IMG/VR virus record: IMGVR_UViG_3300037231_000215
Location: 1-25,090 of that record
Source of the DNA: a virus
DNA: 25,090 nt
Strand: one strand, 5' to 3'
Part shown: positions 1 to 25,090 of the stretch, piece after piece
Numbering within the stretch: position 1 is the first letter of the stretch
Layout: each line of letters begins with the position of its first letter
Made by a program: the position numbers and the translations under genes
The notes under the pieces: model-generated
What the model saw: the letters and a program-made list of their open reading frames with translations, nothing else
Told to the model about the DNA's origin: nothing
Databases searched by the model: none

Positions 1-46
1 CCTTCGCCTTAAACTCAGGACTGTGCTTTTTCCGTGTATTCGACAA
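1..46 (-). CDS. IS3-family transposase OrfA, N-terminal fragment
   Basis: A TTG start at 46 has a strong ribosome binding site (GGAGGTGAGAC) directly upstream. The frame gives MSNTRKKHSPEFKAK before the window edge. Basic residues followed by HSPEFKAK is the usual opening of IS3-family OrfA, the helix-turn-helix protein that is normally fused to the DDE transposase OrfB by frameshifting. A competing frame in the same stretch, ending in EYTEKAQS and a stop, is only the read-through of the interrupted neighbouring gene. Only 15 residues are visible, so the subgroup cannot be given. Confidence 0.75.
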   Translation of the reverse strand, partial: MSNTRKKHSPEFKAK

Positions 47-842
47 GTCTCACCTCCAGCCAACCGACCGTTCCAAGGCTGGACTCTCTCTTAGCTACCT
101 GTCCAGTTTTCGGGGACCACCTCAGATCCTCGGGAAATGCGCTCTTTCCGTCCACCGTCGTCATCACCGGCGCTTGCAGGAGGTTGGCGAGTTCGGTGAG
201 TTCGTCGGATGCCTCTGCGTACAGGACTCCTTGCCCGGCCAGGACCATTGGATGCGACGCCGCGAGCAGCAGTTTGGCCGCCTCGTCGACGTCTCGGGTG
301 TTGGGTGTTGAAATGGTTGGAACGATCGGCCGATAGGATGCCGCGTCGTTTCCGGCGTCGAGATCGACGATGTCCCGGGGAACCTCGACCATGACCGGTC
401 CCGGTCGCCCATTTTTCAAGGCATTGAACGCCCGCCGCATTGCCGCGGTCGTGGCGTGCGGGACAACGATTTCCTCCACCTGCTTGGTGACCGAGGCGTA
501 GGTTCGATTTGACCGGAATGTGGGGAAAACCTGGGATTGGTCGCGGGCATGTGCGAGGGGCAGGAACAGGACGGGGACGCTGTCGGAGAAGGTCGTGGCA
601 ATTCCGGGAAATGCGTTTTCCGCTCCGGGGCCATATTGCATCATGAAGACGCCGGGCGGTTTGCCGTTGGTCACTCGCGCGAACCCGTCGGCCATATCGA
701 CGCCGACCCGTTCCTGCCGGCAGATGATGGGGCGGATGCCGGCGGCGACCGCATTCTCGATCAGGGACGTCGTCGGGAAGCAAAAGAGTGTGGACACACC
801 CTCTCGCTTGAGGATTTCAACGATGGCATCCGCGGTTCGCAT
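15..842 (-). pseudogene. Thiamine-diphosphate-dependent enzyme (acetolactate synthase-like), truncated by IS
   Basis: The N-terminal half of a thiamine-diphosphate enzyme of the acetolactate synthase / benzoylformate decarboxylase superfamily. Residues 1-170 form the PYR domain. Features are TADAIVEILKREGV at the start, a Glu44 in CRQERVGVDMADGFAR in the position of the cofactor-activating glutamate, and GPGAENAFPGIATTFSDSVPVL. The central domain begins near residue 185. Native sequence stops at about residue 239 (SAFPEDL). The remaining 36 codons to the stop are IS sequence, and the PP domain that binds the diphosphate is missing, so a working enzyme is not expected. The ATG at 842 follows an AGGGGAA ribosome binding site. 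Substrate cannot be told. It is probably a host gene: it lies beyond the last phage tail gene and resembles no phage module. Confidence 0.85.
98..124 (-). repeat. Terminal inverted repeat of the left IS3-like element
   Basis: The 27-base terminus matches the terminus starting at 24966 at 22 of 27 positions. All five differences fall in one block (GAAAA here, ATCGG there). A second shared block, TAAGAGAGAGTCC, lies at 93-81, 31 bases in from the tip; at the other end it lies 40 bases in. Such imperfect pairs are expected of the left and right ends of one IS. Confidence 0.8.
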
Positions 843-862
843 TCCGACGTTCCCCTGGCTTT

Positions 863-879
863 GCTGGCTGGGAGCCAGC
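863..879 (-). repeat. Perfect 7-bp hairpin upstream of the thiamine-diphosphate enzyme gene
   Basis: GCTGGCT-CCC-AGCCAGC on the minus strand forms a perfect 7-bp stem with a 3-base loop, about 20 bases before the ATG at 842. No run of T follows on either strand, so it is not a classical terminator. It could be an operator, a leader hairpin or part of an attachment site. Confidence 0.5.
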
Positions 880-930
880 GTAGGCGGAGCGGCGGTGAAG
901 GGGAAGACTTACGGTTGCGTGCTACCTGAG

Positions 931-949
931 TTCCGATCCTGGACCGGAA
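931..949 (-). terminator. Weak hairpin after the last phage gene
   Basis: TTCCGGT-CCAGG-ATCGGAA on the minus strand gives a 7-bp stem (one G-U pair as RNA) with a 5-base loop. It starts a few bases after the stop of the tail-tip gene. The position suits an end-of-operon terminator, but there is no T tract, so this is tentative. Confidence 0.25.
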
Positions 950-953
950 CGTA

Positions 954-3038
954 TCACAAAGGAGTGCTTGACAGCGGGATACCGGAGAACGTCGCCGATA
1001 AGGGAAAGTTCAAGCTCCATGCGGTGCCGAGGTCAGTGCCGGCGTTCCAGCCGGTGGGCATGGCGATGGTGGAGAAATTATCCGTAACCGCGTTGCCGCG
1101 GCCGATTTGCACAGGACCGAATGGATAGAACAGTTGGCATTCGCTGGCCGCGTACAGGAGTGGGCTGCCTAAAGTAACTTGTAAATGTGTCGCGTCCACG
1201 CGCTGGCAGGAGATCGCCGATATGATCGTTCCGTCATTGCCAGGGGTTCCTCCGTCCATGACCGCAAAACCGATACCCGTTACGGCCTGCAACGGAACAA
1301 CCAGGTCGTTCCCGCCATCATGGACGACAGTGACAATGAGTGTCGTGCTTGACTGCATATACACATGCACGATCGAAGGGCCGCCCACTTTCGGCAGGGC
1401 GCTGGGGATGATCGTTATTGAGTCAGTGTATCCACCCGTAACCAGGGCTTGCGCGACAACGGGAGCGGCCAGCATGGCGAAACGCAAGTTGTCCGCGCTG
1501 TCGCGGTGCGATGAATCGCCCCCCGTTGCGATACCGGTCGTGGGATTCCACGATGACCCGCGAGGATTGCTATCGCTGGTTTGAGGGTTACCGACAATAA
1601 CGTTCTGCGCTGGGTTGGCCACAATATTTTGGACAACTTGCCGATGCATTGTTATGCCATCGGCCGATCCATAAGGTATGCCGTTCCACCACACCAGGGG
1701 AATTCGATTGATCGTATCCCCGAGCATCGCTCGCAGCAACGAGAGAAACCGGAGTGCCGCGGCCTCGAAAGTCGCGTACTCGCTGTATTGGCGGAGGCTG
1801 TCGGTCTCATTCCAGGGCCAAACGATCGCACAGAGGTCTGACAGGTCCTCAGCTGGGAGCCCGGCCACCGCCTGTTGCACCGCCAACCCATCCGCCCCCA
1901 GCGACCAGCCCGATGGATTGGAACCGTCTCCCGGATCCTGCACAAAGCTGCCAGGGTATCCAGCACTTGTCACCACGTAGATGCCGTGTCCGCTCTGCAT
2001 TGTATAGTTCGTCGGGCTGCCTGTCGTGGCGAGGACGTTATAAGCAAGAACCCCCAAATACCAGGCGATTCCTTGTGCTAGCAGAGCGGCGGCATCGTCA
2101 TTCATCGAATAGTTGATTGCATTCGACTGGCCGTTTATTATGAGGTAGAGTCCCTTGCGAGCGCCGCGGAACCAACGATTTATATAAGTAATGAGAGATG
2201 AAATGTCGCTATCGGATAATGCCTGGTTCCATTCGGCGGCCTCGTGAAGCCAGCATTGGGCTGCACCGTAGAGCGTGCCATCGTGCAGCAAAAGGACCGG
2301 GCCGGAGAGTGTTCCCGGTGACCAGGGGACGGATTGCGCGACCTGGGTGTTATCCAGCCAGAGATCTGCGCCTGACGCCGGTGAATAGCGGATAACGATG
2401 GAATGTGTATGGCGGCGAGTCATATTCGAGTTGACGACGACCTGGCCAGTACCGGGAAACAGCACAAGCCGGTTAGCCCCGCCGTAGCTGTCTACCTGCA
2501 AGATAGGGTGGGATCCCATCGTCAACAGGGTGATAGGATTTGCGTCGAGATTAGTACCTTGCCGCCAATTGGGCCGAGACCATACCAGATACCAGGTCCA
2601 ACTCGATGCGGCGGTCGCGATAGATCCCGGCAGTTGCCATCCGCATCCAGGATCGAGCGCGGGTTGCAGTAATCCGGCGGTGGTAGTGGGATAGCCGACG
2701 CCGCCCAGCAGGCCTGAAAGATGCGGCGAGCCCTCCGGCAAGGTTGCACCCGCTGGACTATAGAATGGAACCAGATTCCCGCCGTTTCCCGAAAGATCGA
2801 TGAGGGCTGTTCCGCCAGAGTTCCAAACGGTCACGGGTGTATTGCCGGGGCCGAGCAGTCCGCCTGGAGAACTGGCGTCCCACCAACCGGTTGCTCCCGG
2901 GACCGCTTGGATGAGCGTCGATGAAGAGCCTCCGGGGTCGGATGATGATGTTGTCGAGGATTGGAGTGGCGCGTAGAGGGCGAGTTGGTTGTTTCCAACC
3001 CCCATCACGTGGCCAGGTTGGACGAAAACGAGGCTCAT
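954..3038 (-). CDS. Tail-tip / receptor-binding protein with SGNH (sialate O-acetylesterase-like) domain
   Basis: A 694-aa protein, last in the tail operon; its ATG follows the previous stop by three bases. Residues about 45-290 look like a concanavalin/LamG-type beta-sandwich (GWWDAS near the start, later LWLDN and WLHEAAEWN), a fold that often binds sugars. Residues about 295-535 contain LYLIINGQSNA, the GQSN block of SGNH and sialate-O-acetylesterase families, with Ser305 as likely nucleophile. WPWNETDS near 407-414 and GGDSSHRDS (Asp508, His511) supply a plausible rest of the triad. Residues about 545-694 are beta-rich. The inferred role is to bind and perhaps de-O-acetylate a host surface polysaccharide at the tail tip. 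Activity and substrate are not shown by the sequence. The triad assignment rests on motif spacing only. Confidence 0.75.
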   Translation of the reverse strand: MSLVFVQPGHVMGVGNNQLALYAPLQSSTTSSSDPGGSSSTLIQAVPGATGWWDASSPGGLLGPGNTPVTVWNSGGTALIDLSGNGGNLVPFYSPAGATLPEGSPHLSGLLGGVGYPTTTAGLLQPALDPGCGWQLPGSIATAASSWTWYLVWSRPNWRQGTNLDANPITLLTMGSHPILQVDSYGGANRLVLFPGTGQVVVNSNMTRRHTHSIVIRYSPASGADLWLDNTQVAQSVPWSPGTLSGPVLLLHDGTLYGAAQCWLHEAAEWNQALSDSDISSLITYINRWFRGARKGLYLIINGQSNAINYSMNDDAAALLAQGIAWYLGVLAYNVLATTGSPTNYTMQSGHGIYVVTSAGYPGSFVQDPGDGSNPSGWSLGADGLAVQQAVAGLPAEDLSDLCAIVWPWNETDSLRQYSEYATFEAAALRFLSLLRAMLGDTINRIPLVWWNGIPYGSADGITMHRQVVQNIVANPAQNVIVGNPQTSDSNPRGSSWNPTTGIATGGDSSHRDSADNLRFAMLAAPVVAQALVTGGYTDSITIIPSALPKVGGPSIVHVYMQSSTTLIVTVVHDGGNDLVVPLQAVTGIGFAVMDGGTPGNDGTIISAISCQRVDATHLQVTLGSPLLYAASECQLFYPFGPVQIGRGNAVTDNFSTIAMPTGWNAGTDLGTAWSLNFPLSATFSGIPLSSTPL

Positions 3039-3041: not shown

Positions 3042-4922
3042 CTATTGTACCATAAAAGAACTGGTGCTGACTGCCAACGCGCTGCCGTCTAGACCTTTCG
3101 CCCAGGTGTACCATGTGCCGGCCGCTGCGGGGGTATTCACGTAAGCGCCCCATAGATTGGTATTGACGAATGACGCCGCGGTCCAACTTGAGGGCGGTGT
3201 GGTGGCAGATGGCGAAAAGCCGAACTGAATCGCCGCGGATGCGGGGGAGACCAGGGCGTTGACGCCAATTGCCCCGCTTCCGTGGGTATAAGTTCCGCTT
3301 GGGAGCAGATTGAATGTGATGGAGGTGACTGACCCCGAGGCGGCCAGTGTCACGACGGTGACTGTGGCGGATGCTGATCCTGCTCCGGCGCTGTTTACGC
3401 CAATGACCGAGAAGTCGTAGTTTGTTGCGGCTGTGAGACCCGAGATGGTGTCTGTCGTCCCGGTGATGCCGGCGACCGAGAATGTCCAACTTGATGAACC
3501 GGTCACCCTGTATTGAACGGTGAAGCTACTGGCGGCGCTGGTACCCGTCTGAGCTGACCAACTGAGTTGGACGGTGCTACTCGATGTTGCGGTTGCGGCC
3601 AGACCGCTCACTTGTGACGGTAGGGTTACTTGTCCCGCACTCGCTGTTACTACCGTCAATATCGCGGAGGTAGCACCAGCGCCGGTCGTATTTTGCGCGA
3701 CTACAGTGATATCGTAGCTCGTGGTGGATTGCAGGGCTGTCAACTGGTAGGTCGTGGCGCTCACAACCGGTGGGCTACTGCTCCATGATGTTGTGCCAGT
3801 CGGCCGAAATTGCACAATGTACGATACCACCGCGCCACCGCTTGACGGTGGCTGCCAAGATACTGTGATTGTAGTGGTGGTTGTGCCTGACGTTGATAGA
3901 CCACCCACTTGGCCAGGAACGGAAATGCCAGTTGTAGCCGAAGCGGTCGTCGGCATAGAAGCGAAGGCGATCGTGCCACCCGAATAAGTAGCGCAGCAAA
4001 GCGTGGCAGACTGCCAGGGCGTTAGAACGAGGCTGCCGCTGGAACTCACAAATGCCGAACCGAGCGTTATATTGCCGGCGCTTGCATTGATCACGTGGCA
4101 CTGAAATCCACTGCCCATGTTATTGGTCAAAGGGGTCAGCGTGACTGGCTGGCTGCAAACGACGATCCGGCCATTATGCACGGTCGTATCAAGGTTTGTG
4201 TTGGTGGTAATTTCAACGACCGGAGCCTTGAAGGTCGGCAGATTGTTGGCGATCCATACCCAGATCGCACTAAAGGATTGGCTGACCATGACATTGCTGC
4301 CCTGGGCAACCCAGATGGTGTCGGAGTTGCCGGCAGGTCCGGCAGCCTGAGCCTGATCGATTGTCACGCCATCAAGGAAATTGCTGTACGCGATCGCGTA
4401 ATCTGAGCCGGAGTGGCTCACCGCGACGAGATCCTGTGCCGTCAATCCGGTGACGGTCTGGAGTTCTCCGATTGAACCTCCCGACACAACCGTGCCGGTA
4501 ACCGTAGCTTCGGCCGACGTGGATATAACCCCATTTGAATCGATGACGACATTTGAGCCGGCCGAAAACAATCCACGCAGAAAGGAAGCCTGCATCAGCC
4601 CCGGGCTACCCTGATTGGAAATCACCAGGTCAGATTCGATAGAAAGGCTGGATACTGCAGGAAATGCGGAATGATCCAATCCATCCGCGACCAGTGCGGT
4701 ACCAGAAAGACCTATCCCTATTCCGATATCAACCTGTTCCGGACCTCCTGATCCGATGCTTATCCTTCCAAGAAGAGACGGCGAGCTCATGATGATTGTG
4801 GGTTGGGTCGAGGCTAGAACCGCTCCGACCGATGCAGCGCAGACGGAGCCGTTCTGACTTATCGGTATTTCGTCGTCTACCGAAACATTATTGGCTGGGG
4901 GCAGTTGAGATATTGTTGGCAT
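3042..4922 (-). CDS. Tail fibre protein with two fibronectin type III domains
   Basis: A 626-aa fibre. The N-terminus (MPTISQLPPANNVSVDDEIP, then ISQNG) resembles that of the giant fibre encoded just upstream and probably serves for attachment. A related motif recurs around residues 160-190 (DLVAVSHSGSDYAIAYSNFLDG). Residues 235-325 are beta-rich with conserved-looking NITLGSAF and TPWQSATLCC. Two fibronectin III domains follow, about 335-427 and 435-526, each with the usual V.G L...., V.LSW and Y.....A.N..G.G....V features. The last 100 residues form another beta domain. There is no catalytic motif. Fibronectin III domains are frequent in phage surface proteins, where they are thought to aid weak sugar binding. 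The role in adsorption is inferred from position among the fibres. Confidence 0.78.
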   Translation of the reverse strand: MPTISQLPPANNVSVDDEIPISQNGSVCAASVGAVLASTQPTIIMSSPSLLGRISIGSGGPEQVDIGIGIGLSGTALVADGLDHSAFPAVSSLSIESDLVISNQGSPGLMQASFLRGLFSAGSNVVIDSNGVISTSAEATVTGTVVSGGSIGELQTVTGLTAQDLVAVSHSGSDYAIAYSNFLDGVTIDQAQAAGPAGNSDTIWVAQGSNVMVSQSFSAIWVWIANNLPTFKAPVVEITTNTNLDTTVHNGRIVVCSQPVTLTPLTNNMGSGFQCHVINASAGNITLGSAFVSSSGSLVLTPWQSATLCCATYSGGTIAFASMPTTASATTGISVPGQVGGLSTSGTTTTTITVSWQPPSSGGAVVSYIVQFRPTGTTSWSSSPPVVSATTYQLTALQSTTSYDITVVAQNTTGAGATSAILTVVTASAGQVTLPSQVSGLAATATSSSTVQLSWSAQTGTSAASSFTVQYRVTGSSSWTFSVAGITGTTDTISGLTAATNYDFSVIGVNSAGAGSASATVTVVTLAASGSVTSITFNLLPSGTYTHGSGAIGVNALVSPASAAIQFGFSPSATTPPSSWTAASFVNTNLWGAYVNTPAAAGTWYTWAKGLDGSALAVSTSSFMVQ

Positions 4923-4963: not shown

Positions 4964-7900
4964 TCAGGCAGCAACGACCGAACCGCTGCATGAAGAAATC
5001 CAATGTTGGCCGTCGAAGAAGGTCTCGACTCCACTTCCGGAACCTGCTGCTTCACTTGGCTTTCGTCCGTTCGATGCGAAAGCCTTAGCTCCTGCCGCCA
5101 TTCCGGCTGGTAGATTGGCAACGGTATAGGACGCAAGCACGATGGGGCCGAGAAATCTCGGCGAAATAGCGTTCGTACGAAACACCTCGTACCACAGTGA
5201 ATCGCCATCCGAGACAATATGGCAGCGATCATTCGAATATAGAACAATGGGGCCAGAGGTGAATCCATTTGTCCCGTTCGGGACGATGGTAACAGGTCCT
5301 GTCCCAGTCACCGAAAAAGTAAACCCAGTTCCTGCTGCGACAGTACTCGCCGGCGGTAAGTTGATCGAGTAGCCGGTCGTACCAGCTAGAAAAATGATGT
5401 CGCCCGATATATAATTTGGCAGCGTGGCGGAACTTGAATATACTTCAGCCCAACCGACTGATATACCCTTCCCGACAACATAAGAAAGAGTGCCTTGATT
5501 CCACCGAAGGGTATTAGTTGTGCTATCATATAGTAATCTATTGCTGTTTGTACCTTCGAACGCAATTGCTTGGCCGGCGGACATCTTGATAACCGGGGCA
5601 TTGTTAATTGTCTGCGCGTTAGTAGAATCGAGTATGGCATTCGAAAATGGGACGCAAATTTTGAAGACTGTTTTGGTGCTCCCAGAAGATCCGCCGCTAA
5701 GATAAACACCAATAATACTGCCTACTTCAACTGGCGAACCGAACGTGTTATTTTGACCGATGACAAGACTTTGAATGGTCCGGCTATTGGCATCGTCTAG
5801 GCCATTGCCGAACCAGTCCATCTCAATTGTAAGTGAAGAATTTACCGCGCTTGATGGCTGCCCAGTCGTATCCCTGTATTCGATGCAGACACCCCAAAGC
5901 TGCGGCTGTGGTAGAAACGAGCCATTAGATCCAGTCGTAGCCGACTGTCGGATGGTTTGAATGTAGCGGCCGACATGTTGAGTTGGGGCGGCGGCATTTG
6001 GAGTTTGGGTTCCTACCCAGAGCAAACGATCAAGACCACTCCAAACAGAATTGCCGGGGCTGCTGTAGATAATAGTATCGCTGCGAACGTTGGAAATTAC
6101 TGCGCCATTTGGGCCGCCGCTGTGATTGACGATGTAAGACGATTGACTAACCGCGAAGTCTGTTGCCTGCGACGCCCCTTGAGACGTCGCGGAGCCAACA
6201 GGGGCATTGCCGACGACAAATCCTGGCAGCACGAAATCTGCCGGCCCCCCACCCCCCGGGATCGCTGAGGCAAGCGGGGTCCCGTCTGATAGGACGGTTC
6301 CGTCTACGATCCACTTGACTCGCTTGGTAAGTGCGATTCCCCAGGTGCCAGGCTGCTGTATAACTGTTACGCCGTTCGGAACGTAAATGGCTGCACCCGT
6401 CAGGGCTGCCTGATACGCTGCCTTGAACGCGGCCGTATCGTCCGTTAGGCCATTAATTTTGGCGCCATAAGGAGGCATCATTACATTGATGACGCCCTCG
6501 GAGTTCGGGTTTGCATCGACGTACGATTTTGTGGCCGCCTGCAATGGCGACGTCGGCACCCCCGCAAGTGTTAGAGTCCCGGTCAGCGTGCCGCCCGAGT
6601 AAGGCAAGCCAGTCGCGACCTGCCCGTCCACGTATTGTTTGGTCGCCCCATGTAGGGCAGACGTTGGTGGCGCCGCCAACGAGAGCAACCCGGTCAATGA
6701 CCCGCCCGTGATAGGAAGTGCCGTGGCAACCTGTGCGTCTACGTAGCGTTTCGTAGCGGCCTGACCGAGACTGATTGGATCCGCACTGAGTGTGAGAGAT
6801 CCCGTAAGGCTACCACCGGCACGCGGCAACGACGTGATTACCTGACCGTCAACATAGTTCTTGGTTGCAGCCTGAGCCGCTACAACTGGATCGGCTGCCA
6901 GTATGAGCGGGCCAGTAAGCGTATCGCCACTGCGCAATACCCTGGCGTCGGCGTATTGCTTTGTTGCGGCCTGCGTTGCGGCAGTGGGGTCGCCGGCTAG
7001 AATTATTGGCCCCGTGAAGGTGCCCCCTGATGCAGTGATCGTCATTGAAAGCTGATTATCAACATATTGCTTGGTCGCGGCATGTAACGAAGCCGTCGGG
7101 TTCGCCGCAAGATACAGCGCGCCGGTCAACGTGTCGCCATTGCGCACGACGTGGAGATCGACATATTGCTTTGTACTGGCCTGCAATGGCGTCGCGGGAT
7201 CCGAGGCCAACAACAGCGCGCCGGTCATCGATGCCCCCGACCGCGAGATTGAGCCGATGGCTTGCGCGTCTACATAATTCTTTGTTGCGGCCTGTGGTGG
7301 CATCACTGGATCGGCTGCGAGAATAAGTGCACCCGTCAGCGTATCGCCGGTTCGGAGAATTCTTTGGTCAACGTATTGTTTGGTGGAGGCTTGCGCATTG
7401 GCCGACGGATCGGATGCCAGAAGCAAACTTCCGGTCAACGTTCCACCCGACGTTGGTAAGGATGTAGAGACTTGAGTATCAACGTAATTCTTAGTGGCCG
7501 CTTGCAACGCGGACACGGGATCGGCCGCCAGAGTAAGTAGCCCCGCTAGGGTGTCACCTGTCCGCGCCAACTTTAAATCGGTATAATGTTTAGTCGACGC
7601 TTGTAGCGCGGTAGTGGGGTCGGCGCTTAGGAGCAGAGTGCCTGAAAGTGAGCCGCCACCTGTTGGTAGAAGCCCCGCGGCGATCGAATCTGCATATCCC
7701 TTTGTCGCCGAGTCAAAGGGGCGCTGCGGTGCAGCTAATAGCGTCAAGACTCCCGACATTGACCCACCGGACAAGGGTAGAGCGGTCGAGACTCGTTGAT
7801 CGACATAAGCTTTATTAGCTGCGTGTCCGGACGCGGTGGGAGCATCAACCAGAGTGAGAAGGCCCGTCACCGTCCCCCCGGACAGGGGGAGCATTTTGGC

Positions 7901-8347
7901 GGCCAATTGGGCCAGGGTCTGACCCGACGTTGTGCCGGCTGCCGTCACTAAAGCTTGGGACAGATTAATATTTGCAACTCCCGAAATACCGTTCAGGAGT
8001 TGACCATAAGTGACCGCTACATCTTGTCCCGCCTGGGATATTGAAATCAGATCACCATTCGCTGGTACCGTTCCCGCCGGAAGGGCCGTAATCACAAATG
8101 GTGCGGCAGTTGCCGATAAGGTAGAACCGTTGAAACTCAGATTTTGGCCGACAGTGATGACTTGTGGAGCTCCTAGACCGGTCCCCACTCCGCCAAGCAG
8201 GGAGTGGGGGGGTACAGTCAGTTGTGTTTGGACGCCGTTCAAAACCTGCGCGCGTGTGACCTTTCGAGCGATCCCTGCCTGGCTAACGACGAACTCATCG
8301 GAATCAGACGCAGAGGTTGCGGGGGCAAGGTTGTCGATTGTCGGCAT
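4964..8347 (-). CDS. Giant repeat-containing tail fibre protein
   Basis: About 1127 aa from the ATG at 8347. That start is preferred over the ATG at 8371 because GGAG lies upstream and the N-terminus then aligns with the next fibre (MPTI). Two copies of an SQAG....LLNG motif occupy residues 1-130. Residues 178-605 are twelve repeats of 33 or 37 residues with ATK.YVD and G.(T/S)LTG..(L/I)LAADP cores, a trimeric fibre-shaft type. At about 619-650, YGAKINGLTDDTAAFKAAYQAA resembles the opening strand-helix of pectate-lyase-like beta-helix tailspikes. A beta-rich receptor-binding part follows. The end, with LASYTVANLPAGMAAGAKAF and GVETFFDGQHWIS, is a C-terminal domain common on alphaproteobacterial phage fibres. 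It is likely the main long adsorption fibre. No catalytic residues could be assigned. Confidence 0.85.
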   Translation of the reverse strand: MPTIDNLAPATSASDSDEFVVSQAGIARKVTRAQVLNGVQTQLTVPPHSLLGGVGTGLGAPQVITVGQNLSFNGSTLSATAAPFVITALPAGTVPANGDLISISQAGQDVAVTYGQLLNGISGVANINLSQALVTAAGTTSGQTLAQLAAKMLPLSGGTVTGLLTLVDAPTASGHAANKAYVDQRVSTALPLSGGSMSGVLTLLAAPQRPFDSATKGYADSIAAGLLPTGGGSLSGTLLLSADPTTALQASTKHYTDLKLARTGDTLAGLLTLAADPVSALQAATKNYVDTQVSTSLPTSGGTLTGSLLLASDPSANAQASTKQYVDQRILRTGDTLTGALILAADPVMPPQAATKNYVDAQAIGSISRSGASMTGALLLASDPATPLQASTKQYVDLHVVRNGDTLTGALYLAANPTASLHAATKQYVDNQLSMTITASGGTFTGPIILAGDPTAATQAATKQYADARVLRSGDTLTGPLILAADPVVAAQAATKNYVDGQVITSLPRAGGSLTGSLTLSADPISLGQAATKRYVDAQVATALPITGGSLTGLLSLAAPPTSALHGATKQYVDGQVATGLPYSGGTLTGTLTLAGVPTSPLQAATKSYVDANPNSEGVINVMMPPYGAKINGLTDDTAAFKAAYQAALTGAAIYVPNGVTVIQQPGTWGIALTKRVKWIVDGTVLSDGTPLASAIPGGGGPADFVLPGFVVGNAPVGSATSQGASQATDFAVSQSSYIVNHSGGPNGAVISNVRSDTIIYSSPGNSVWSGLDRLLWVGTQTPNAAAPTQHVGRYIQTIRQSATTGSNGSFLPQPQLWGVCIEYRDTTGQPSSAVNSSLTIEMDWFGNGLDDANSRTIQSLVIGQNNTFGSPVEVGSIIGVYLSGGSSGSTKTVFKICVPFSNAILDSTNAQTINNAPVIKMSAGQAIAFEGTNSNRLLYDSTTNTLRWNQGTLSYVVGKGISVGWAEVYSSSATLPNYISGDIIFLAGTTGYSINLPPASTVAAGTGFTFSVTGTGPVTIVPNGTNGFTSGPIVLYSNDRCHIVSDGDSLWYEVFRTNAISPRFLGPIVLASYTVANLPAGMAAGAKAFASNGRKPSEAAGSGSGVETFFDGQHWISSCSGSVVAA
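6533..7816 (-). repeat. Array of twelve fibre-shaft repeats (33/37 codons)
   Basis: Counting from one ATK/STK-x-Y-(V/A/T)-D to the next gives units of exactly 37 (long, L) or 33 (short, S) codons. Short units carry R(T/N/S)GDTL; most long ones carry LPxSGG or a similar stretch four residues longer. The order in the protein is L-L-S-L-S-L-S-L-S-L-L-L. The central four S-L pairs (7594 down to 6755) make a 70-codon, 210-base period. Units are diverged at DNA level but obvious in protein. Confidence 0.88.
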
Positions 8348-8442
8348 GGATACTCGTTCTCCGGTCCCCATAATCTGCTGGGGAGGCCTGATCCAAGGGG
8401 GTGCGGCGACTGATGCGTGAATTTAAAAACAGAGAAGCAGAA

Positions 8443-8928
8443 TTAGCTGCCTGATAGGACTGGATTCCCATTTTGATCTGTAAGCACAACGCCGCTCGCT
8501 GTTACTAATGCATTGGGTGGAATTGCGGGAACAGAAAGTAACAGCACAGGTAGCAGGACGCTTCTTTGGAGTGATCGACCATTGGTAGTCGTTATACCGA
8601 ATGTTATCGTATAAATAGTTCCAGCCTGCCCTTCCGAAAGCCAAAGTATGATACGGCTACCATCCGCGGTCGTGCTCCGAAGAACGAGATCACCCGGATT
8701 GGACGGCGAAAGGTTGACCAGTAGTGTTGCGATGCCATCTCCATCGTTGCCAACTATCGCAGGTCCAATGTCGAGTATATAGTCCAAAATGTCGCCAGGA
8801 TCCTTCGTGGGCCAATTTAGCGGAGGGGGCGCTATAGCAGCATTGCCACGAGGGAGAGGGATGAAAGAATCAATCGTCACCAAGCGTGCGTTACTTGGCT
8901 TCCAGACGTGACTTACAGTCGTTGACAT
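8443..8928 (-). CDS. Probable phage fibre-tail adaptor protein
   Basis: A 161-aa protein between the glycine-rich fibre and the giant fibre. The N-terminal part has WPTKDPGDILDYILDIGPAIVGNDGDGIATLLVNLSP, followed by RIILWLSEGQAGTIYTITFGITTTNGRSLQRSVLLPV. This pattern (KDP..ILDY..D, then WLS.GQAG..Y.ITF.I.T..GR) matches the family annotated as fibre-tail adaptors in many alphaproteobacterial phages. The short C-terminal tail (VLTDQNGNPVLSGS) is hydrophilic. The ATG at 8928 has AGG six bases upstream. It probably helps connect the downstream fibres to the baseplate. Family assignment is from memory of the motif and is moderately secure. Confidence 0.62.
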   Translation of the reverse strand: MSTTVSHVWKPSNARLVTIDSFIPLPRGNAAIAPPPLNWPTKDPGDILDYILDIGPAIVGNDGDGIATLLVNLSPSNPGDLVLRSTTADGSRIILWLSEGQAGTIYTITFGITTTNGRSLQRSVLLPVLLLSVPAIPPNALVTASGVVLTDQNGNPVLSGS

Positions 8929-12200: not shown

Positions 12201-12206
12201 GTCCAA

Positions 12207-13102: not shown

Positions 13103-13120
13103 GCTTCCTCGCGGTGAAAT

Positions 13121-14372: not shown

Positions 14373-15107
14373 TCAGGTTCCTGAGCTATTTAGGTTCGTT
14401 CCTATTCGTCCTACGTAAGATCCAGCATTGACGGCCGCTGCTAACGAGCCGGCGCTGTTCACCGTCGCGGTGAGGGTTGGGCCAATACTGTCGGGTTCCG
14501 AACCTGCTTCGATTGGGGCCGTAACCAAGGCTGACTGTAACGCGACCTGCGCGTTAATAGCGACCAATGTAGTGCCGATCGCTGTCACCGCCTCTATCTG
14601 GTCGGATGTGCCCAACGTTAGCGCATTGGTGGCGGAAAGAGCGGTCTGCAACGCAGTCAGCGAGACGACTGAGCCGGCGACCGCGGACAAAGCGCTACCG
14701 AGGTCTGCCGACACGAGGGCCGATAAGGTTGATGTTTGTGCGTACGCTGCGCCAGTTTGATAAACGACGACACAACTCACCTTGTAGGGGATCCACCAGG
14801 GGCTGTGATAGTCAGCGACGAAGCTCTTCACCACGATCCGACGTCTGAATGACTCCCAGGTTAACCACACAATCTGGCCTGATACCCGGAGATTGTCGAA
14901 TGCGCGAACACGGGCCTCCGCATTGGCTCCGGAAAACGTGCCCTGAAAGGCGATCTCGCCATCGTCCGGTCCCAGTCGCTCCACGATTCTCCGGCCACCG
15001 GATAATTTATGAACTGCTACCCTGTAACGACCCCCAAAGCGGACCGATGAAGGGATTTCGAAACCTTGAAGGCGTATGGGCCCGATCTGGATTGGTGAGT
15101 CCTGCAA
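14373..15107 (-). CDS. Tail/baseplate protein in the gpN/gpU position
   Basis: A 244-aa protein with a TTG start. Residues 1-118 are a beta-rich domain (IQIGPIRLQGFEIPSSVRFGGRYRVAVHKLSGG near the start, then LGPDDGEIAFQGTFSGANAEARVRAFDNLRVSGQIVWLTWESF). This matches proteins commonly found in alphaproteobacterial contractile-tail clusters between the tape measure and the LysM gene. Residues 125-244 are Ala/Ser/Thr-rich and probably helical. Position suggests a hub or tube-baseplate adaptor equivalent to Mu gpN or T4 gp53/54-side proteins. Exact family was not assigned. Confidence 0.6.
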   Translation of the reverse strand: MQDSPIQIGPIRLQGFEIPSSVRFGGRYRVAVHKLSGGRRIVERLGPDDGEIAFQGTFSGANAEARVRAFDNLRVSGQIVWLTWESFRRRIVVKSFVADYHSPWWIPYKVSCVVVYQTGAAYAQTSTLSALVSADLGSALSAVAGSVVSLTALQTALSATNALTLGTSDQIEAVTAIGTTLVAINAQVALQSALVTAPIEAGSEPDSIGPTLTATVNSAGSLAAAVNAGSYVGRIGTNLNSSGT

Positions 15108-16054: not shown

Positions 16055-16578
16055 TCATCGCGCGCCCGTCGCGGGTTGCGTCCACTCGAACGCCGACCAA
16101 TCAAAAATGTGGCCCCCGAGGGTTCCGAGGGCAATGACATAAGCTGCCCTTTCGGTATCCGAAAGTGAGAACGCAACGTTAAATGGCACCCCGTTCCGAA
16201 CAAGGTACAGACAGTCGATCAGGACTGGGTGCCGGGCAAGTTTCCCACGTTTGCATTCGGATCAGACCCTTCTTGCCGAACTTTGAAGGTGTCGGCGATG
16301 GCCGACAATCCCTCATCGCCCAACCGGTCGATCAAGCTCTCGATTTGCGGTTCAGTCGTCGGTGGGGGCACGGGCACGCCATCGATTTCCAAAACTGAAA
16401 ATGCCAAACCTGCCATGGAAAGCCAAGGTTCATTTTGAGCCAGGACTGGACCGGCAGCTTTGAAAAGCCTCAATGTGTCGAGTGCGGTCAGGCATCGTAG
16501 TACCAGACGCCGGCCCTTCCCGTCGATAACCGAAGCGGTCTTGATAGATTCCCGCACAATGGCCTGCGAAGGAGTCAT
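16055..16578 (-). CDS. Tail assembly chaperone, -1 frameshift fusion product
   Basis: This is the long form of the chaperone. Ribosomes read 113 codons from the ATG at 16578, slip back one base at GGGAAAC (16246-16240), and read 61 more codons to a TGA at 16055, giving 174 aa. The extension has no start of its own. It reads LIDCLYLVRNGVPFNVAFSLSD, then ERAAYVIALGTLGGHIFDWSAFEW, a pattern typical of the downstream chaperone domain in alphaproteobacterial tails (GVPF.VA, A..IALG, G..FDW). As with lambda gpG/gpGT and P2 gpE/E', a fixed ratio of short and long products would guide tail tube assembly on the tape measure. The stop overlaps an ATG (ATGA) for the next gene. Confidence 0.85.
16219..16578 (-). 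CDS. Tail assembly chaperone, short (unshifted) form
   Basis: A 119-aa protein starting in a TGATGA overlap with the tube gene stop. The sequence (TASVIDGKGRRLVLRCLTALDTLRLFKAAGP, then EPWLSMAGLAFSVLEIDGVPVPPPTTEPQIESLIDRLGDEGLSAIADTF) has the features of gpG/gpE-type tail chaperones that follow the tail tube. Translation ends seven codons after the slippery site, so ribosomes that do not shift make this form. It should bind the tape measure and tube subunits during assembly and is absent from the finished tail. Confidence 0.82.
   Translation of the reverse strand: MTPSQAIVRESIKTASVIDGKGRRLVLRCLTALDTLRLFKAAGPVLAQNEPWLSMAGLAFSVLEIDGVPVPPPTTEPQIESLIDRLGDEGLSAIADTFKVRQEGSDPNANVGNLPGTQS
16240..16246 (-). 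promoter_or_regulatory. Programmed -1 ribosomal frameshift site GGGAAAC
   Basis: The zero frame reads GTG GGA AAC, which places G-GGA-AAC as a perfect X-XXY-YYZ heptamer. The -1 frame is open from here to 16055, and its product is family-like. Lambda uses the closely related GGGAAAG in the same gene position. No strong pseudoknot was identified by eye downstream. Confidence 0.88.
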
Positions 16579-17006
16579 CAGATGCGGCGCTTCCGGGTCG
16601 CATAGAATTCGAGCTTCTGTTTTACGCTGGAATCTCCCTTCCAGGCGCCGGCACTGGTCAACTTAAATACCACGCCATCAAATTGGTAGGTCGAAACGGA
16701 GCTATCTGTCTCGGTAACGTATTGATACATCGTACTGGTTTGGTTATCAGTTCCGCTATAAAAATTTTGCTCGAGACCAGAAATGAAGTCATCCAATGCA
16801 GAGGTTCCTCTTTCAACCTCAAAATTTCCTTCCCAGCCCTTCGGAAGTTCGGCGCCAAGCTGGGTCCCATCAAGCCGGCTGATCCGCACCGGGCTCGTGA
16901 GCTGCCGGCTTTCAAAGCCAGTAACGTGGCTAATGTCGACTCGGCCACTGGGGCCCATGACCACAAGTTGAGTGTCCCGGCCTATCGAGAATGCTGTCAG
17001 TGCCAC
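16578..17006 (-). CDS. Tail tube protein
   Basis: A 142-aa protein between the sheath and the chaperone, the size and place of contractile-tail tube proteins. The GTG start at 17006 has TAGGAG nine bases upstream. The sequence is beta-rich throughout, as expected of Hcp-like tube subunits: GFESRQLTSPVRISRLDGTQLGAELPKGWEGNFEVERG, then TYQFDGVVFKLTSAGAWKGDSSVKQKLEFYATRKRR. It would polymerise into the inner tube that carries DNA and holds the gpV spike. The stop overlaps the chaperone ATG. Confidence 0.82.
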   Translation of the reverse strand: MALTAFSIGRDTQLVVMGPSGRVDISHVTGFESRQLTSPVRISRLDGTQLGAELPKGWEGNFEVERGTSALDDFISGLEQNFYSGTDNQTSTMYQYVTETDSSVSTYQFDGVVFKLTSAGAWKGDSSVKQKLEFYATRKRRI

Positions 17007-17017: not shown

Positions 17018-18580
17018 CTAGTTAACTTGACCAGTGGGCAGCGTCTGTACAGATACCTCGACCGTCTGGCCTCCCTCGACATTGACAATGAACCGCTCGT
17101 TGATTGCCTGGTACTGGACTTGAGCATCGGATTGGACATAGCCCAGGCCTGTGCGCGAAAGCGGATTGTTGCTTGCGTCGCAGATGACACTGAATGGTAG
17201 TGAACCATTCGTGCTGCCGAGCAACCCTTGTCCATACATGTTGTTTAGAAACGACAATTGAGTTGATCGGATTTGCTGGAACAGGTTGCTGTTGATTACC
17301 TGCCCGACATATTGGCCCATGCCGGCGGCCAACGTCTCGGCGATATAGTTGGTTAGTCGCGTGTAGTTATCTCCATCTATGGCTGCGTTCGACGACGTAT
17401 TGTTCCCGCCACGGACGCCCCAATACGACCCACCCGGCTGAGGATTGCAGATCAGATCGAGGCCGGCACCGAGAAGCGCACTGAGGTCAGCGGATGCGTA
17501 TGTCGTGTTCTGACCGGAACCAGGGGTCCCGGTCCGTTGGCTGCCTATGACTCCGTAGATCTGCTTATTGAGGCTGGACTGTTCCGGCGATAGATTTGCC
17601 AGGCGACCGGCTGCGAAGCCTTGCGGTGAGACAAGGCGGACAGTGTTATTTACCTGATCAGACCACCATAACCAGTCACCAAACATAAGTTTTGCGCCAT
17701 AGCTGTCCAACCCTGCTGCTGCCTTGGTCGTAACGGCATTCGTGATGGTGTCACCAGCTGGCGTTGTGAGGATCATGTACATCCCCTCGTCCAACCCGAA
17801 CCCCGCCTGAGTCGTCCAGGTCGTGCAATCGTCGCAATCCGCGAGCACCCCGAGACCACAGCCCTGTCCCCGCAATGCATACATTCCAGTGCGACTGGAG
17901 ACGTCCGCACCCACCAGTTGACTGCTGCCAACCTGTGTCGCTCCGTCCGACCCGGCGCCCGAGGATCCCAAGGTTAATGAGAATGGTGCCGGCGAAGCGG
18001 TCGTCCCACCCGCGCTGGCGACGATGAGGAGAGATGGCCCGCGCTGTGGCCCGAGGCCCATATTGACTGCGGCCGCCAAACCCGCCCAAAAAGCCGCTCC
18101 ATTACCGACCAGTCCGTCGTACATCTCGGGAACAAATCCAGGAAGTAGTACCGTAAGAACCCATGTATTGGGCTGGCTGCCTGCTCCAAGAGTTAGTGTG
18201 ATATTGTTGCCAAGAGAGCCGGTGTAGATCGCAGTGAAGCTTGCATTCGACCCTGGGACCGTAGTATATGCTGCCGCGTCGGTGCCGTCGGTCACGCGCA
18301 CGCAGCGGAAATTTTGAGCGCCCTGTTGGACCGCGGTTGCCACCTGAGTCCCCAGATCGTATTTTCGCGGTACAATTGACCCAAACTGCTGTGCATAATC
18401 GGCCATCGTCGCAACGATTGCGGGTTCGTCGACGGGGCCCCAGGATGCGGTCCCAACGATACCGACTATGTTGGTCGGGACTCCGTTCAAAACCAAATTT
18501 TGGGGCGGAACGATCTGTACGTACAGACCCGGCACAATTAGCGATGTCGTATTGACGCTGCCTTGCTGAGAGATTGGCAC
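17018..18580 (-). CDS. Contractile tail sheath protein
   Basis: A 520-aa protein. The N-terminus (SLIVPGLYVQIVPPQNLVLNGVPTNIVGIVGTASWGP) is the classic sheath opening: PG-YV, then GVPT, then a GP-rich turn. The C-terminus (YVQSDAQVQYQAINERFIVNVEGGQTVEVSV) is the typical domain ending in the arm that links neighbouring subunits. A variable middle domain occupies about residues 100-330. The start is GTG at 18580 with AAAGG nine bases upstream, inside the end of the small upstream gene. The sheath identifies the particle as myovirus-like. The gene is full length and uninterrupted. Confidence 0.92.
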   Translation of the reverse strand: MPISQQGSVNTTSLIVPGLYVQIVPPQNLVLNGVPTNIVGIVGTASWGPVDEPAIVATMADYAQQFGSIVPRKYDLGTQVATAVQQGAQNFRCVRVTDGTDAAAYTTVPGSNASFTAIYTGSLGNNITLTLGAGSQPNTWVLTVLLPGFVPEMYDGLVGNGAAFWAGLAAAVNMGLGPQRGPSLLIVASAGGTTASPAPFSLTLGSSGAGSDGATQVGSSQLVGADVSSRTGMYALRGQGCGLGVLADCDDCTTWTTQAGFGLDEGMYMILTTPAGDTITNAVTTKAAAGLDSYGAKLMFGDWLWWSDQVNNTVRLVSPQGFAAGRLANLSPEQSSLNKQIYGVIGSQRTGTPGSGQNTTYASADLSALLGAGLDLICNPQPGGSYWGVRGGNNTSSNAAIDGDNYTRLTNYIAETLAAGMGQYVGQVINSNLFQQIRSTQLSFLNNMYGQGLLGSTNGSLPFSVICDASNNPLSRTGLGYVQSDAQVQYQAINERFIVNVEGGQTVEVSVQTLPTGQVN

Positions 18581-20912: not shown

Positions 20913-22235
20913 TTAGCCAATGTGTTCCACGATCACAGCGCGCTTGTAAGCAGCGTTGGTGGCGGTTGGCACCGTTGTCGGGTTGGTGGTGGTATCCGAT
21001 GGGGCACAGAACCCGCCGATCCAGTACCAAGACTGTGCGATGATTTGCTGCAAACGATCGATTGCCTCACGGGTGACCATAGCGATCCCATCTATCATGT
21101 TGATAATCGAATCCGCTGGTGCAACGTCCGTAGCTGCGATGCCGGCAAAATCTCCCTCAATCAAGGCCCCTTGACCACAAATCACCGGCCGTCGGATCAT
21201 CAGGCCGGACAATGTTGGATGCGCCTGAACGAATGCCTCGGTGGTCGGAACGAAGCGAAGGCCTAAGAAGTCGTTCGTCATGCCTTTTTTGAAGACCTGG
21301 TTGGCCGAGGTCGCGCCCTGGAAGAGCTGCTTGAAGTCCGGGTCGGCAAAGAGTTGGCGAGAGGAAACAGGATCGAGATAACAGTTATAAGCACCATCGA
21401 TTTCGGGAACCGCGTTCAAACGAAGTTTGGCAACCGCATCAAGAAGATTAGACATCGTCAGCGTATCGGACGCTGTGATTAGGGAACTGTTCCCGCGCTG
21501 CGATGGACGTACGATAGTCGCGGCGCTCGCGGCGCTAACCGTATTGCCGGCGGTCCCATCGCCTACCGTGACATTACCGGACAACGTAAGGACGCCCGAC
21601 ACACCATTCGGTGCCGTGGATACGTTCGTGGTATCTATTGCGACGCTGACGAGTGTATAGGCATCCGATCCGATAGTGACCGTCATCGGCGCGCTGCTGC
21701 TGACAGCCTGTTGGATACCGTTGACAAATACAGTCAGAAAGCCGCGAACATCGTCGACTGCGACGGCCGGGCCCGCACTCGCGAGCGTGGTGCGGACGCG
21801 GGTATTGCCACCCAGATACGCCCCGAACAGTGCGTTCCGGCTCAGTTCATCCAGGCTGCGGGCCGCCTGTTCGCCGTTCACATAGGCGTTTTGCAAAAAC
21901 TGCGATGCGATGCCTACTCTTTCGGTCACGACGTTGAGGTCGGTCGTCGCGGCGTAGAGATTGATGGAGATTGTATATTGCTCGACGCCCCATGTGGTGG
22001 GGCTCAGACCATTGTCGAAGTTGGTATTCGTTGCCGGTGCCAGCGGCGTTGTTACCGACGGCTTCAGTCCGGCTCGGGTCTTGGTCAGCGTTTCACCAAT
22101 ACCAACTGCCACTGTAACGCGATCGGCACAAGCGCGGTAACCGAGCCGTGATCGCAATGCCTGCGCGAATTCGCGCTCAAGAAAGCCCTGCTGAATAATC
22201 GGTTGAAGCGAAACGGGAAAATTTTGAATACCCAT
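20913..22235 (-). CDS. Major capsid protein
   Basis: About 440 aa from the ATG at 22235, with AGGACG upstream; a TTG three bases earlier is also possible. The core has HK97-fold capsid character: NFPVSLQPIIQQGFLEREFAQALRSRLGYRACADR at the N-terminus, a long helix with SQFLQNAYVNGEQAARSLDELSRNALFGAYLGG, then PVSSRQLFADPDFKQLFQGA. No protease precedes it and no delta domain is evident, so maturation probably uses the separate scaffold-like protein upstream. Residues about 145-250 are a Val/Thr/Ser-rich beta domain that looks inserted into the fold (see findings). The C-terminal residues include DGIAMVTREAIDRLQQIIAQSWYW. Confidence 0.85.
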   Translation of the reverse strand: MGIQNFPVSLQPIIQQGFLEREFAQALRSRLGYRACADRVTVAVGIGETLTKTRAGLKPSVTTPLAPATNTNFDNGLSPTTWGVEQYTISINLYAATTDLNVVTERVGIASQFLQNAYVNGEQAARSLDELSRNALFGAYLGGNTRVRTTLASAGPAVAVDDVRGFLTVFVNGIQQAVSSSAPMTVTIGSDAYTLVSVAIDTTNVSTAPNGVSGVLTLSGNVTVGDGTAGNTVSAASAATIVRPSQRGNSSLITASDTLTMSNLLDAVAKLRLNAVPEIDGAYNCYLDPVSSRQLFADPDFKQLFQGATSANQVFKKGMTNDFLGLRFVPTTEAFVQAHPTLSGLMIRRPVICGQGALIEGDFAGIAATDVAPADSIINMIDGIAMVTREAIDRLQQIIAQSWYWIGGFCAPSDTTTNPTTVPTATNAAYKRAVIVEHIG

Positions 22236-22283
22236 CAATCGTCCTATCTAAAATCTGTGACCGTCGTCTGATGCGGCGAGCAA

Positions 22284-22694
22284 TCAGAATTGGTATTTTG
22301 TTACTGCGGTCCGGGCCGCAGCATATTCTTCGTCTGTCATTTCCAATGCCGTCTTCTGCCGAGCAGGCTGTGACGTCGGTGCGATGGCCGCACTCGATGA
22401 GGATGCTACCCCAAACAACCATGGTTTGGTTCGTCGGAGATCGTCCATCAGCTTGCGGCCACCGATTATTTTGTCGTCATTGCCTAGCCGAACAGTCGAG
22501 ATGTCGATCAGCCTCAATCCATCCAGATCGATCATTCCCGCTCGGACTGCTTCGGTCCGCAAGTTTGCTACAACGAGACGGGACTGAAATTCGTCCCGTA
22601 ATTTGGTGATATCTTCGGACTCCGTCGCCGGTTGCTCGTCCAGAGTATCTCCCAGTTCGGAGGCCGGTTGCGCGTCATGCAATTCATCATCCAT
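22284..22694 (-). CDS. Capsid scaffold-like protein
   Basis: About 136 aa if begun at the ATG at 22694, two bases after the portal stop; in-frame starts at 22715 and 22748 would overlap the portal gene. The N-terminal part is acidic (MDDELHDAQPASELGDTLDEQ). A helix follows (SEDITKLRDEFQSRLVVANLRTEAVRAGMIDLDGLRLID), then LMDDLRRTKPWLFG and a disordered Ala/Ser/Gln stretch. It ends in a basic helix (YAAARTAVTKYQF). Small acidic helical proteins with the AVRAGMIDLDGL and KPWLFG patterns are encoded between portal and capsid in many alphaproteobacterial phages and are taken to be scaffolds. Confidence 0.68.
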   Translation of the reverse strand: MDDELHDAQPASELGDTLDEQPATESEDITKLRDEFQSRLVVANLRTEAVRAGMIDLDGLRLIDISTVRLGNDDKIIGGRKLMDDLRRTKPWLFGVASSSSAAIAPTSQPARQKTALEMTDEEYAAARTAVTKYQF

Positions 22695-22695
22695 T

Positions 22696-24108
22696 TCAAT
22701 CTCGTGGAGTGTCATCAAGAGTTGTCGAAACCAGTCCGTCCTCAACATATTCTATGTCGTAACAAGCAGCGATTGCCTTCAAGGCGGTCTCCCGGCTGAT
22801 GCATCCTGCTGTCACCAAGGACGTCAATGATTGAACGTCCTTCTGGCGGTCATCTGCGGTCGTGGGATACCATCTCGGCCACTTGAGGCTCAGTAGCGCA
22901 TTTGGATCAAGAGGTTCAATCGGTTCGCCCAGAACAACGACGCTATACATTTGCGACGCACGCACAATAAGTCGAGCGAGTTGTAAGAGGCCTGCTTCAC
23001 CGTAACTGGTTCGCAAATTGTCAGTGAGCCAGATCAGGCCTTGGTTCAGCAATTCCAATGCTCGACCGGACTGTGCGGAGGTAATTCGCTCAGGGCTGGC
23101 ACGATTGCCGTGGATACTCTCCAGTGCAAGTTCGCGCAAGGTTCGGACATACTCGATAACCGCGGCCGAGGCTGTTCCACCGATCTCTAAAAGCCGGGCG
23201 TCACCCTTTTCGGAAACGATTAGTGCATTGCCTGCACCCTTAATCAACTCACCGTCGGGAAAGGCAGGGTCCTTCAACAGCAAAGTAGGGTCGCTGCTGT
23301 ATTTCAGGCCACGGCCCGCCTGACTTAGTTGGTAGTCGATTTCTACCTGGGTATGCATCGCCGCTGCGAACGTGCATGCGCCATCTACGCTGTCTCCCGT
23401 TGCCGATGAGCCAGGTAAGTTCTTGATCCATACGATCGGCACGGCGCCAAACTTGTGTGTGACGGAACGGGCGGTATCGATCACCGAGGGAAGGGCTTTT
23501 CCAACTGGTGTTGGGACCAGCCAGGTCTCACTGTCTTTGTCCCAGAATCGCGTGAACCAATACTGGCCATCAGGTTCATCGATCGTATATCCGTTCCGCA
23601 GGAGATCGGCCCCGGCGACTTTATACCGGTCATCAACTCGGGCAAGTGTATCGGGGGCTGATGGATCCCAGGTTGGTGTAAGATACATTGTGTCCAAGAC
23701 ATCAACGAATATTCGTCCCTTCAGGACGCGCAGGAGCAAGGCGACAGACCCTGTCGCTCCTCTCATCGCAGCCTGAGTCATCGTCAGATTCAGGCGGGTT
23801 TCTTTGATTATATTTGCAAACGTCGCTCGTACTGTTCGGTCGGTACTATCGATGGTTGGAAAATGGCCCTCACTGAATAACAAAGACACACTGTCTTCTA
23901 CGACGATGCGGCATAGTGGATATCTGACACTAGGGCGTCGTTGTCGGAGAGGAATGTATTCTCCAGCTTCGGTTCGTTCCTCATGAAAATGATACGGGAG
24001 TACATCATAAAGCGTCCCGTCGAGCACGCGATCCAGAATCGTCAGCTTCCGGACCCGCTGCGGGTAGTCATTATCACAACGGACCAAATCGCAGAGTGCG
24101 TCAAACAT
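22696..24108 (-). CDS. Portal protein
   Basis: A 470-aa protein between terminase and scaffold/capsid. Its size and composition fit SPP1 gp6-type portals, the dodecameric ring through which DNA enters. Supporting stretches are YPLCRIVVEDSVSLLFSEGHFP (N-terminal wing), VPIVWIKNLPG, CTFAAAMHTQVEIDYQLSQAGRGLKYSSDPTLL and ARLLEIGGTASAAVIEYVRTLRELALESIHG (stem and clip helices). The last part, SLKWPRWYPTTADDRQKDVQSLTSLVTAGCISRETALKAIA, is the characteristic C-terminal region in which two helices precede the end. It is open and full length, so the IS damage stops at the terminase. Confidence 0.85.
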   Translation of the reverse strand: MFDALCDLVRCDNDYPQRVRKLTILDRVLDGTLYDVLPYHFHEERTEAGEYIPLRQRRPSVRYPLCRIVVEDSVSLLFSEGHFPTIDSTDRTVRATFANIIKETRLNLTMTQAAMRGATGSVALLLRVLKGRIFVDVLDTMYLTPTWDPSAPDTLARVDDRYKVAGADLLRNGYTIDEPDGQYWFTRFWDKDSETWLVPTPVGKALPSVIDTARSVTHKFGAVPIVWIKNLPGSSATGDSVDGACTFAAAMHTQVEIDYQLSQAGRGLKYSSDPTLLLKDPAFPDGELIKGAGNALIVSEKGDARLLEIGGTASAAVIEYVRTLRELALESIHGNRASPERITSAQSGRALELLNQGLIWLTDNLRTSYGEAGLLQLARLIVRASQMYSVVVLGEPIEPLDPNALLSLKWPRWYPTTADDRQKDVQSLTSLVTAGCISRETALKAIAACYDIEYVEDGLVSTTLDDTPRD

Positions 24109-24138
24109 TTGGTTCCAAACTTTAAATTCGCCGATTGG

Positions 24139-24965
24139 TCAGCGACTGAGTATTGATAGGCCGATCGAACTCGGTGAGCGCGCACGCGTCGTCAACGTTG
24201 TGAACGCGCGAACCAAGGCATCGACCTGATCGTCTTTTCTGCCCCAGGGAAAGTCACGCATTTCGGCGAGGAGGGTCCGGCTCCATTCGGCGCGGACGAT
24301 AGAGACGTTGCCGGCCTCCACTTGAGATGCAAGTGGCATGGCTCGGGTCGCCTTGGAGCCTGTTTCGCGGGACGAAATCACATGGAATCCTGCAAGTTGC
24401 CGCGTCAGATATGACATTTGGCTCTTTCCGGCCTGACCTGGATCCTCGGGAATCGCCACGATGACTCTTGCACCGTCCTTTTGGGCAGTGGTTACAATCA
24501 ACTCCTCGACTTGATGCGGCGTCCCGCGGATCCGGGCGACATCGAGAATCAGATACCGGCCGGTATTTTCTCGTGATACCTTGATGCCCACCGTCCAATC
24601 GGGATCGTTGCTTCCGGTATTCCCTGTCGCAGCCAAGTCCCATGCTCGAACGGTTGTTCCTGTGTCCGGCTCCAGCTGTGCCACAGCGATACGATCAATA
24701 GAGAATAGTCTGCCACCGGACGGTAACGGTGTCTGCTGAAAAAGGGCCGACCATGCGCGCTCGCCGATGAGTTCACGCTTACGCGTAAGCGCCTTATGAT
24801 CTTCCCACTCAGGCCACAATGGTGCCCCCACCGAGCGGCCGAGGGGGTCGTCGGTCTCCGCGAATGCCGGAAGCCGCAGGACGCGCCACTCAGATCTCGC
24901 CTGCTCCAATAGCTGCCCCCCCAAATCGTCAGGGTGCCAGCGTGTCATGATTAAAACCACTTTAC
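24139..24965 (-). pseudogene. Large terminase, C-terminal part; ATPase half removed by IS
   Basis: The surviving 273-275 codons hold the end of the ATPase domain (VVLIMTRWHPDDLGG, the coupling region) and the whole nuclease domain. Asp108 in RAWDLAATG, Glu172/Asp173 in IPEDPGQAGKS and Asp243/Asp244/Asp247 in KDDQVDALV supply the usual metal-binding acids (numbered from a GTG at 24960). The gene meets an IS terminus at 24966, directly before the Lys codon of KVVLIMTRWH. Walker A and Walker B, about 200 residues, are missing, so no DNA translocation is expected. GTG at 24960 or ATG at 24948 could still start a nuclease fragment, but neither has a good ribosome binding site. Portal and capsid genes follow as usual. 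Confidence 0.88.
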
Positions 24966-24992
24966 TGAGGTGGTCCCCATCGGCTGGACAGG
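24966..24992 (+). repeat. Terminal inverted repeat of the right IS3-like element
   Basis: A 27-base terminus, 22 of 27 identical to the repeat at 124-98 and pointing the other way. It joins terminase sequence directly (…TTTAC then TGAGG), which fixes the insertion point to within a base. Confidence 0.8.
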
Positions 24993-25090
24993 AACCGGGG
25001 TGACTTAAGAGAGAGTCCCGCCGTGTTTCCCATTCCCTCCCGATATGAGGGACGAAGTATTACCTAAGTATAGACCCTATTCTACATGGG
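24966..25090 (-). mobile_element. IS3-family-like insertion sequence, orfB-side end (partial)
   Basis: From 24966 the plus strand reads TGAGGTGGTCCCC, ATCGG, CTGGACAGG, then TAAGAGAGAGTCC at 25006-25018. This is the partner of the terminus at 124. No orfA-like start is found where the other end has one (about 78 bases in), and the two ends diverge beyond the shared blocks. This end is therefore best taken as the opposite (orfB-side) terminus, with the element lying to the right and reading leftward. No protein-coding frame can be identified in the 125 bases visible. Confidence 0.75.

Follow-up and report, generated by a model that had tools for sequence, protein, structure and literature searches.

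The viral record IMGVR_UViG_3300037231_000215 is classed in IMG/VR as linear without end repeats, and its 25,090 bp make up the whole stretch of DNA analysed here (the window). Both edges carry the tip of an insertion sequence (IS), and the genes in between are those of a phage head and contractile tail. This raises the question of whether the segment is a prophage, a unit that the flanking IS can move, or a cluster that the bacterial host has kept for itself. The features of the window are as follows.

1-124, minus strand: orfA-side end of an IS3-family element; 83% identity across 124 nt with the IS in G001:C398 (left end), 92.7% with a copy in genome G003
125-842, minus strand: first ~239 codons of a thiamine-pyrophosphate (TPP) enzyme gene, cut by the left IS; Pfam TPP_enzyme_N/M, 87-94% amino acid identity to intact ~550-aa orthologues
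954-3038, minus strand: terminal fibre-like protein (694 aa), last gene of the cluster; 68-75% in four relatives, found in eight viral contigs
3042-4922, minus strand: fibronectin-III fibre-like protein; Pfam fn3
4964-8371, minus strand: long tail fibre protein (1135 aa); PHROGs tail fibre
8443-8928, minus strand: small conserved cluster protein; 73-81% in relatives
9107-10360, minus strand: glycine-rich tail fibre/assembly protein; Pfam Gly_rich_2, PHROG 863
10391-12584, minus strand: baseplate genes, gpI-, gpJ- and gpW-like; Pfam Baseplate_J, PHROGs 26379, 6 and 120
12584-14161, minus strand: baseplate spike (gpV-like) and gpD-like tail protein; PHROGs 6142 and 52
14373-15107, minus strand: conserved tail protein of unknown function; PHROG 21362
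15158-16051, minus strand: poorly conserved 297-aa gene in the tape-measure position; 35-54% amino acid identity, conserved C-terminal motif
16219-17006, minus strand: tail assembly chaperone-like gene and tail tube-like gene; position, PHROGs 20383 and 12993, 63-85% in relatives
16246-16240, minus strand: G GGA AAC, candidate heptamer for -1 frameshifting where the chaperone-like frame ends
17018-18580, minus strand: contractile tail sheath; PHROG 23 (1.4e-46), 53% to phage phiKX1
18745-20888, minus strand: four genes in head-tail connector position; PHROGs 13532, 14605 and 14539 (three of them), conserved order
20913-22238, minus strand: major capsid protein; PHROG 1357
22284-22748, minus strand: small gene between portal and capsid, possible scaffold; position, 59-64% in relatives
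22696-24108, minus strand: portal protein; PHROGs 145/64
24139-24965, minus strand: C-terminal 273 aa of the terminase large subunit (terL), cut by the right IS; Pfam Terminase_6C, TIGR01630, 76-79% to intact genes
24966-25090, plus strand: opposite, orfB-side end of this IS3-family element type; 81% identity across ~120 nt with the IS in G001:C398 (right end), 87% with a copy in G002

The two IS tips, at 124 on the minus strand and at 24966 on the plus strand, are built alike: the left one reads TGAGGTGGTCCCC-GAAAA-CTGGACAG and then TAAGAGAGAGTCC, the right one TGAGGTGGTCCCC-ATCGG-CTGGACAG and then TAAGAGAGAGTCC. The joint pattern occurs in the window only at these two places, and in none of 100 shuffles. 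A complete relative (G001:C398:5412-6839) is 1428 bp long, with an orfA frame of 98 aa and an orfB frame of 329 aa, the latter scoring 286.9 bits against an NCBIfam IS3 cut-off of 160. The first 124 nt of this relative match the left 124 nt of the window at 83%, and its last ~120 nt match the right 125 nt at 81%. Since the two window ends thus match opposite ends of one element, they are, by alignment, the orfA-side and orfB-side ends of a single IS3-family element type, as the initial annotation had inferred, and opposite ends facing the segment mean direct orientation if there are two copies. The orfA start noted in the left end, a TTG at 46 from which the frame reads leftwards L-S-N-T-R-K-K-H-S-P-E-F-K-A-K, likewise has its counterpart (MANTRKKHNAEFKAK) at the matching place in the complete relative. 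Assignment to the IS3 family follows from the TGA...TCA ends and from the relative, which carries orfA and orfB between terminal inverted repeats, although the window itself shows only ~125 bp of either IS end.

The same IS is carried by other genomes within the family, and another pair of both ends lies 3897 bp apart in G004. Exact patterns of the IS ends gave no match in viral_contigs or genome_contigs and those of the insertion sites none in viral_contigs; a plasmid search yielded a single short match, in Salipiger, and nothing for the right end. A 1428-bp element at L199 426-1853 (G003:C128) has the ends of the window's IS and a different interior, with frames that resemble another transposase family, and could be either a hybrid or a decayed copy that received an insertion. 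The orfA end was also seen at L078 1170-1291, just upstream of the terminase gene in a related viral contig.

Only the inner ends of the IS lie in the window, the outer parts falling beyond the record. Contigs that end within a repeated IS are the usual sign of assembly breakage, and several contigs of the related genomes stop inside this same IS, so that the ends of the record most likely are assembly breaks as well.

Between the IS ends, the minus strand encodes, in this order, the C-terminal part of the terminase, portal, capsid, connectors, sheath, tube, chaperone, baseplate and fibres. No integrase, repressor, replication or lysis gene was found in the segment, which makes the initial label of prophage too strong, and no Rfam family was found in the window. 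Frameshifting in tail-chaperone genes is a known phenomenon, and the candidate heptamer and overlapping frame match this expectation: the heptamer is in frame, and the shifted frame is open and conserved in five loci. The 297-aa gene showed no BLAST similarity to a 743-aa protein of phage phiKX1, so that reading it as a shortened tape measure follows from its position only.

Comparison with related genomes showed that the cluster occupies a fixed chromosomal site. In Rhodopila-clade genomes the order is tgt, cluster, TPP enzyme gene, recA, and positions 128-24966 of the window are colinear in G002, G004, G008 and G009 at 65-72% nucleotide identity. Upstream of terL, queG-queF-tgt is found in nine loci. 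On the downstream side the cluster is followed by the TPP gene and recA, except in G005 and G006, where recA stands without the TPP gene. Orthologues of the TPP gene at 87-94% are present in G001, G002, G004, G008 and G009, and the intact ones adjoin the same cluster. An intact cluster is also present in Rhodopila globiformis DSM 161. Colinearity and conserved flanking genes thus indicate that the segment has kept its ancestral location, where two genes were interrupted: terL retains ~273 of the ~455 codons that it has in relatives, and 239 of ~550 codons remain of the TPP gene. Acidocella-type genomes carry the cluster with another flank, common to them, indicating that the site is fixed within clades and not across the family. 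In one Acidocella locus a DUF6362 gene (L122 6151-6636) lies directly upstream of terL, where the Rhodopila clade has tgt and a promoter-like element. No tRNA was found in the fetched regions at the cluster site, and the cluster contigs of G002, G004, G008 and G009 have no match to PF00589, integrases being present elsewhere in those genomes.

The open frames of the cluster are intact, and their dN/dS values versus relatives are mostly 0.03-0.15; dS is saturated in the more distant pairs, which makes the closest pair, with L011, the best guide. Terminase, portal and capsid belong to the most tightly constrained genes (0.03-0.06); the 297-aa gene is the exception, with 0.3-0.5 where measurable. 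Of 300 genomes of the family, 133 have the capsid gene. Among the matches listed, a close form (63-89% identity) occurs in 95 genomes, in 93 of them once, and the remaining genomes carry copies at ~43-60% identity. More than one copy of the cluster was found in G253 and G242, indicating some transfer or duplication. Three capsid copies lie in one metagenome-assembled genome (L126 and L129, on the same contig in opposite orientation, and L105), which may stem from duplication, from a live phage or from mixed binning. The tree built from portal, capsid and sheath of 18 genomes shares 9 of 15 splits with the tree of the host protein RpoB, which was identified by motif; six splits conflict, four of them with support >0.9. 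Distances for the phage genes and RpoB are correlated (r = 0.60, Mantel p = 0.0001), with a Spearman coefficient of only 0.32.

We favor, with a probability of about 0.72, the reading that two in-place IS insertions flank a domesticated, vertically inherited and selected phage-derived head-tail cluster. The contig would be a chromosomal piece from a Rhodopila-like Acetobacteraceae bacterium, with its ends inside two direct copies of a multi-copy IS3-family element, one of which would have landed in the terminase gene and the other in the TPP-enzyme gene. The 24-kb head and contractile-tail cluster would have stayed in its ancestral place, inherited vertically under purifying selection, and most likely makes, or made, phage-like particles for its host. 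We thus read the segment as an immobilised, selected phage-derived element, an old cluster of acid-loving bacteria, and prefer this to a transposon or a prophage. Against it stand the facts that purifying selection alone fits live phages too and that other Acetobacteraceae carry the cluster at other sites.

Both facts would also suit an ordinary, still-mobile prophage with a favored integration site in the clade, where repeated integration would have produced the shared flanks; its structural genes are, moreover, 42-53% identical to those of the complete phages phiKX1 and phiKX2. We consider this unlikely. On the cluster contigs of four clade genomes there is neither an integrase nor, at the site, a tRNA, host genes lie directly on both sides of the cluster with no repressor or replication genes between them in the Rhodopila clade, and the tree is largely congruent with that of RpoB.

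More improbable still is a tailocin-like particle, in which the tails serve as weapons and the head genes are mere remnants. The contractile tail with baseplate and fibres and the broken terL of the window's strain are as this would have it, but terminase, portal and capsid are under strong constraint and all intact in relatives.

With odds as long as those of the tailocin, the molecule could be circular and have a single IS copy, such as a circle of the segment formed by IS recombination, which the assembly opened within the IS. Both ends of one IS would then face the segment exactly as seen, and a recombination circle is expected to have unequal flanks. A simple single insertion in a circle, however, leaves a target duplication, that is, equal flanks of 3-5 bp, whereas the inner flanks here are TTAC on the right and GATC on the left; in addition, the record is classed as linear, and terL and the TPP gene lie ~24 kb apart in relatives. 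Because the outer IS parts fall beyond the record, the choice between two copies and one circular copy rests on synteny and the unequal flanks. Of the initial proposal of two directly oriented copies, the end polarity stands, and two separate copies are the probable arrangement.

The composite transposon that had been suggested, with two IS copies mobilising the 24.84-kb segment as a unit, is highly improbable: the same IS type does stand at both edges in direct orientation, but relatives free of the IS have the TPP gene and terL at these very edges, the segment is at its ancestral place rather than at a new site with a target duplication, so that the main support for this idea is gone, and IS3-family elements usually move singly. 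Loss of the segment through recombination between IS copies is possible in principle; the collections searched contain no exact match to the IS ends or to the two insertion sites and so speak neither for nor against a junction allele in which one IS replaces the segment.

Under the favored reading of in-place insertions, the right IS has a predictable consequence. The stretch between tgt and terL contains a strongly conserved block, AAAAAAGGCTTGACCAAACRCCCCAAAA, with a TAT-rich box ~17 bases after TTGACC. This promoter-like element occurs once per genome in nine Rhodopila-clade genomes, upstream of terL in the loci fetched (e.g., L086 6552-6578), and in none of 11 other genomes searched. In the window's strain it would fall beyond the right IS, outside the record. 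The right IS would thus both remove the N-terminal part of terL, which carries the Walker A motif in relatives, and separate the operon from its promoter-like element, so that DNA packaging should be lost; judged from the sequence, it is probably disabled in this strain.

A gene-transfer-agent (GTA)-like role is our leading guess for the function of the cluster, at somewhat less than even odds. Vertical inheritance, purifying selection and a host-fixed position, with one site within the Rhodopila clade and other sites in other genera, are what a functional GTA should display; against this, no lysis gene was identified, and a GTA would need one from elsewhere. Slightly more tentatively, the cluster may represent a new contractile-tail GTA family, fixed in many acidophilic Acetobacteraceae and, in the Rhodopila clade, equipped with a dedicated promoter element present once per genome.

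The IS pair itself is ordinary biology and mainly explains where the contig ends. The cluster carries more weight: of the 300 genomes sampled from the family, about a third have a close relative of its capsid gene, and loci of this kind are treated as viruses in IMG/VR (539 confirmed contigs). If they encode host-maintained particles, some of the "viral" signal in acidic soils and peat would come from bacterial machinery, and Alphaproteobacteria may possess a second gene-transfer system unrelated to the first.

Of the phage records found, those of the Komagataeibacter phages phiKX1 and phiKX2 come closest in capsid, sheath and baseplate J (42-53%), and these phages share the gene order of the cluster. 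In contrast to the cluster, phiKX1 has a 53-kb genome with a small terminase, a repressor-like regulator, an antirepressor and early genes, and a tape-measure-like protein of 743 aa where the cluster has its 297-aa gene. Phage-like contigs shared among Sphagnum moss viromes and linked to Acetobacteraceae also lack excision genes and were read as temperate or degraded prophages (PMC12142844). They resemble the cluster in having structural genes beside host genes, no integrase and gpV/W/J baseplate domains, a likeness of features and not an identification as the same cluster. The gene named as their neighbor, lpxK (PMC12142844), is absent from the cluster contigs in those genomes that were checked. 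A 2019 survey found RcGTA-like clusters in 0 of 62 Acetobacterales genomes (PMC6821227), so that the proposed GTA family, if true, would occur in an order where none of that type was found. With RcGTA-type elements (Rhodogtaviriformidae) the cluster shares a host-fixed head-tail organization, the lack of an integrase, purifying selection and vertical inheritance; whereas those are defined by a homologous cluster with a non-contractile tail, the cluster described here encodes a contractile sheath and has its closest phages in phiKX1 and phiKX2.
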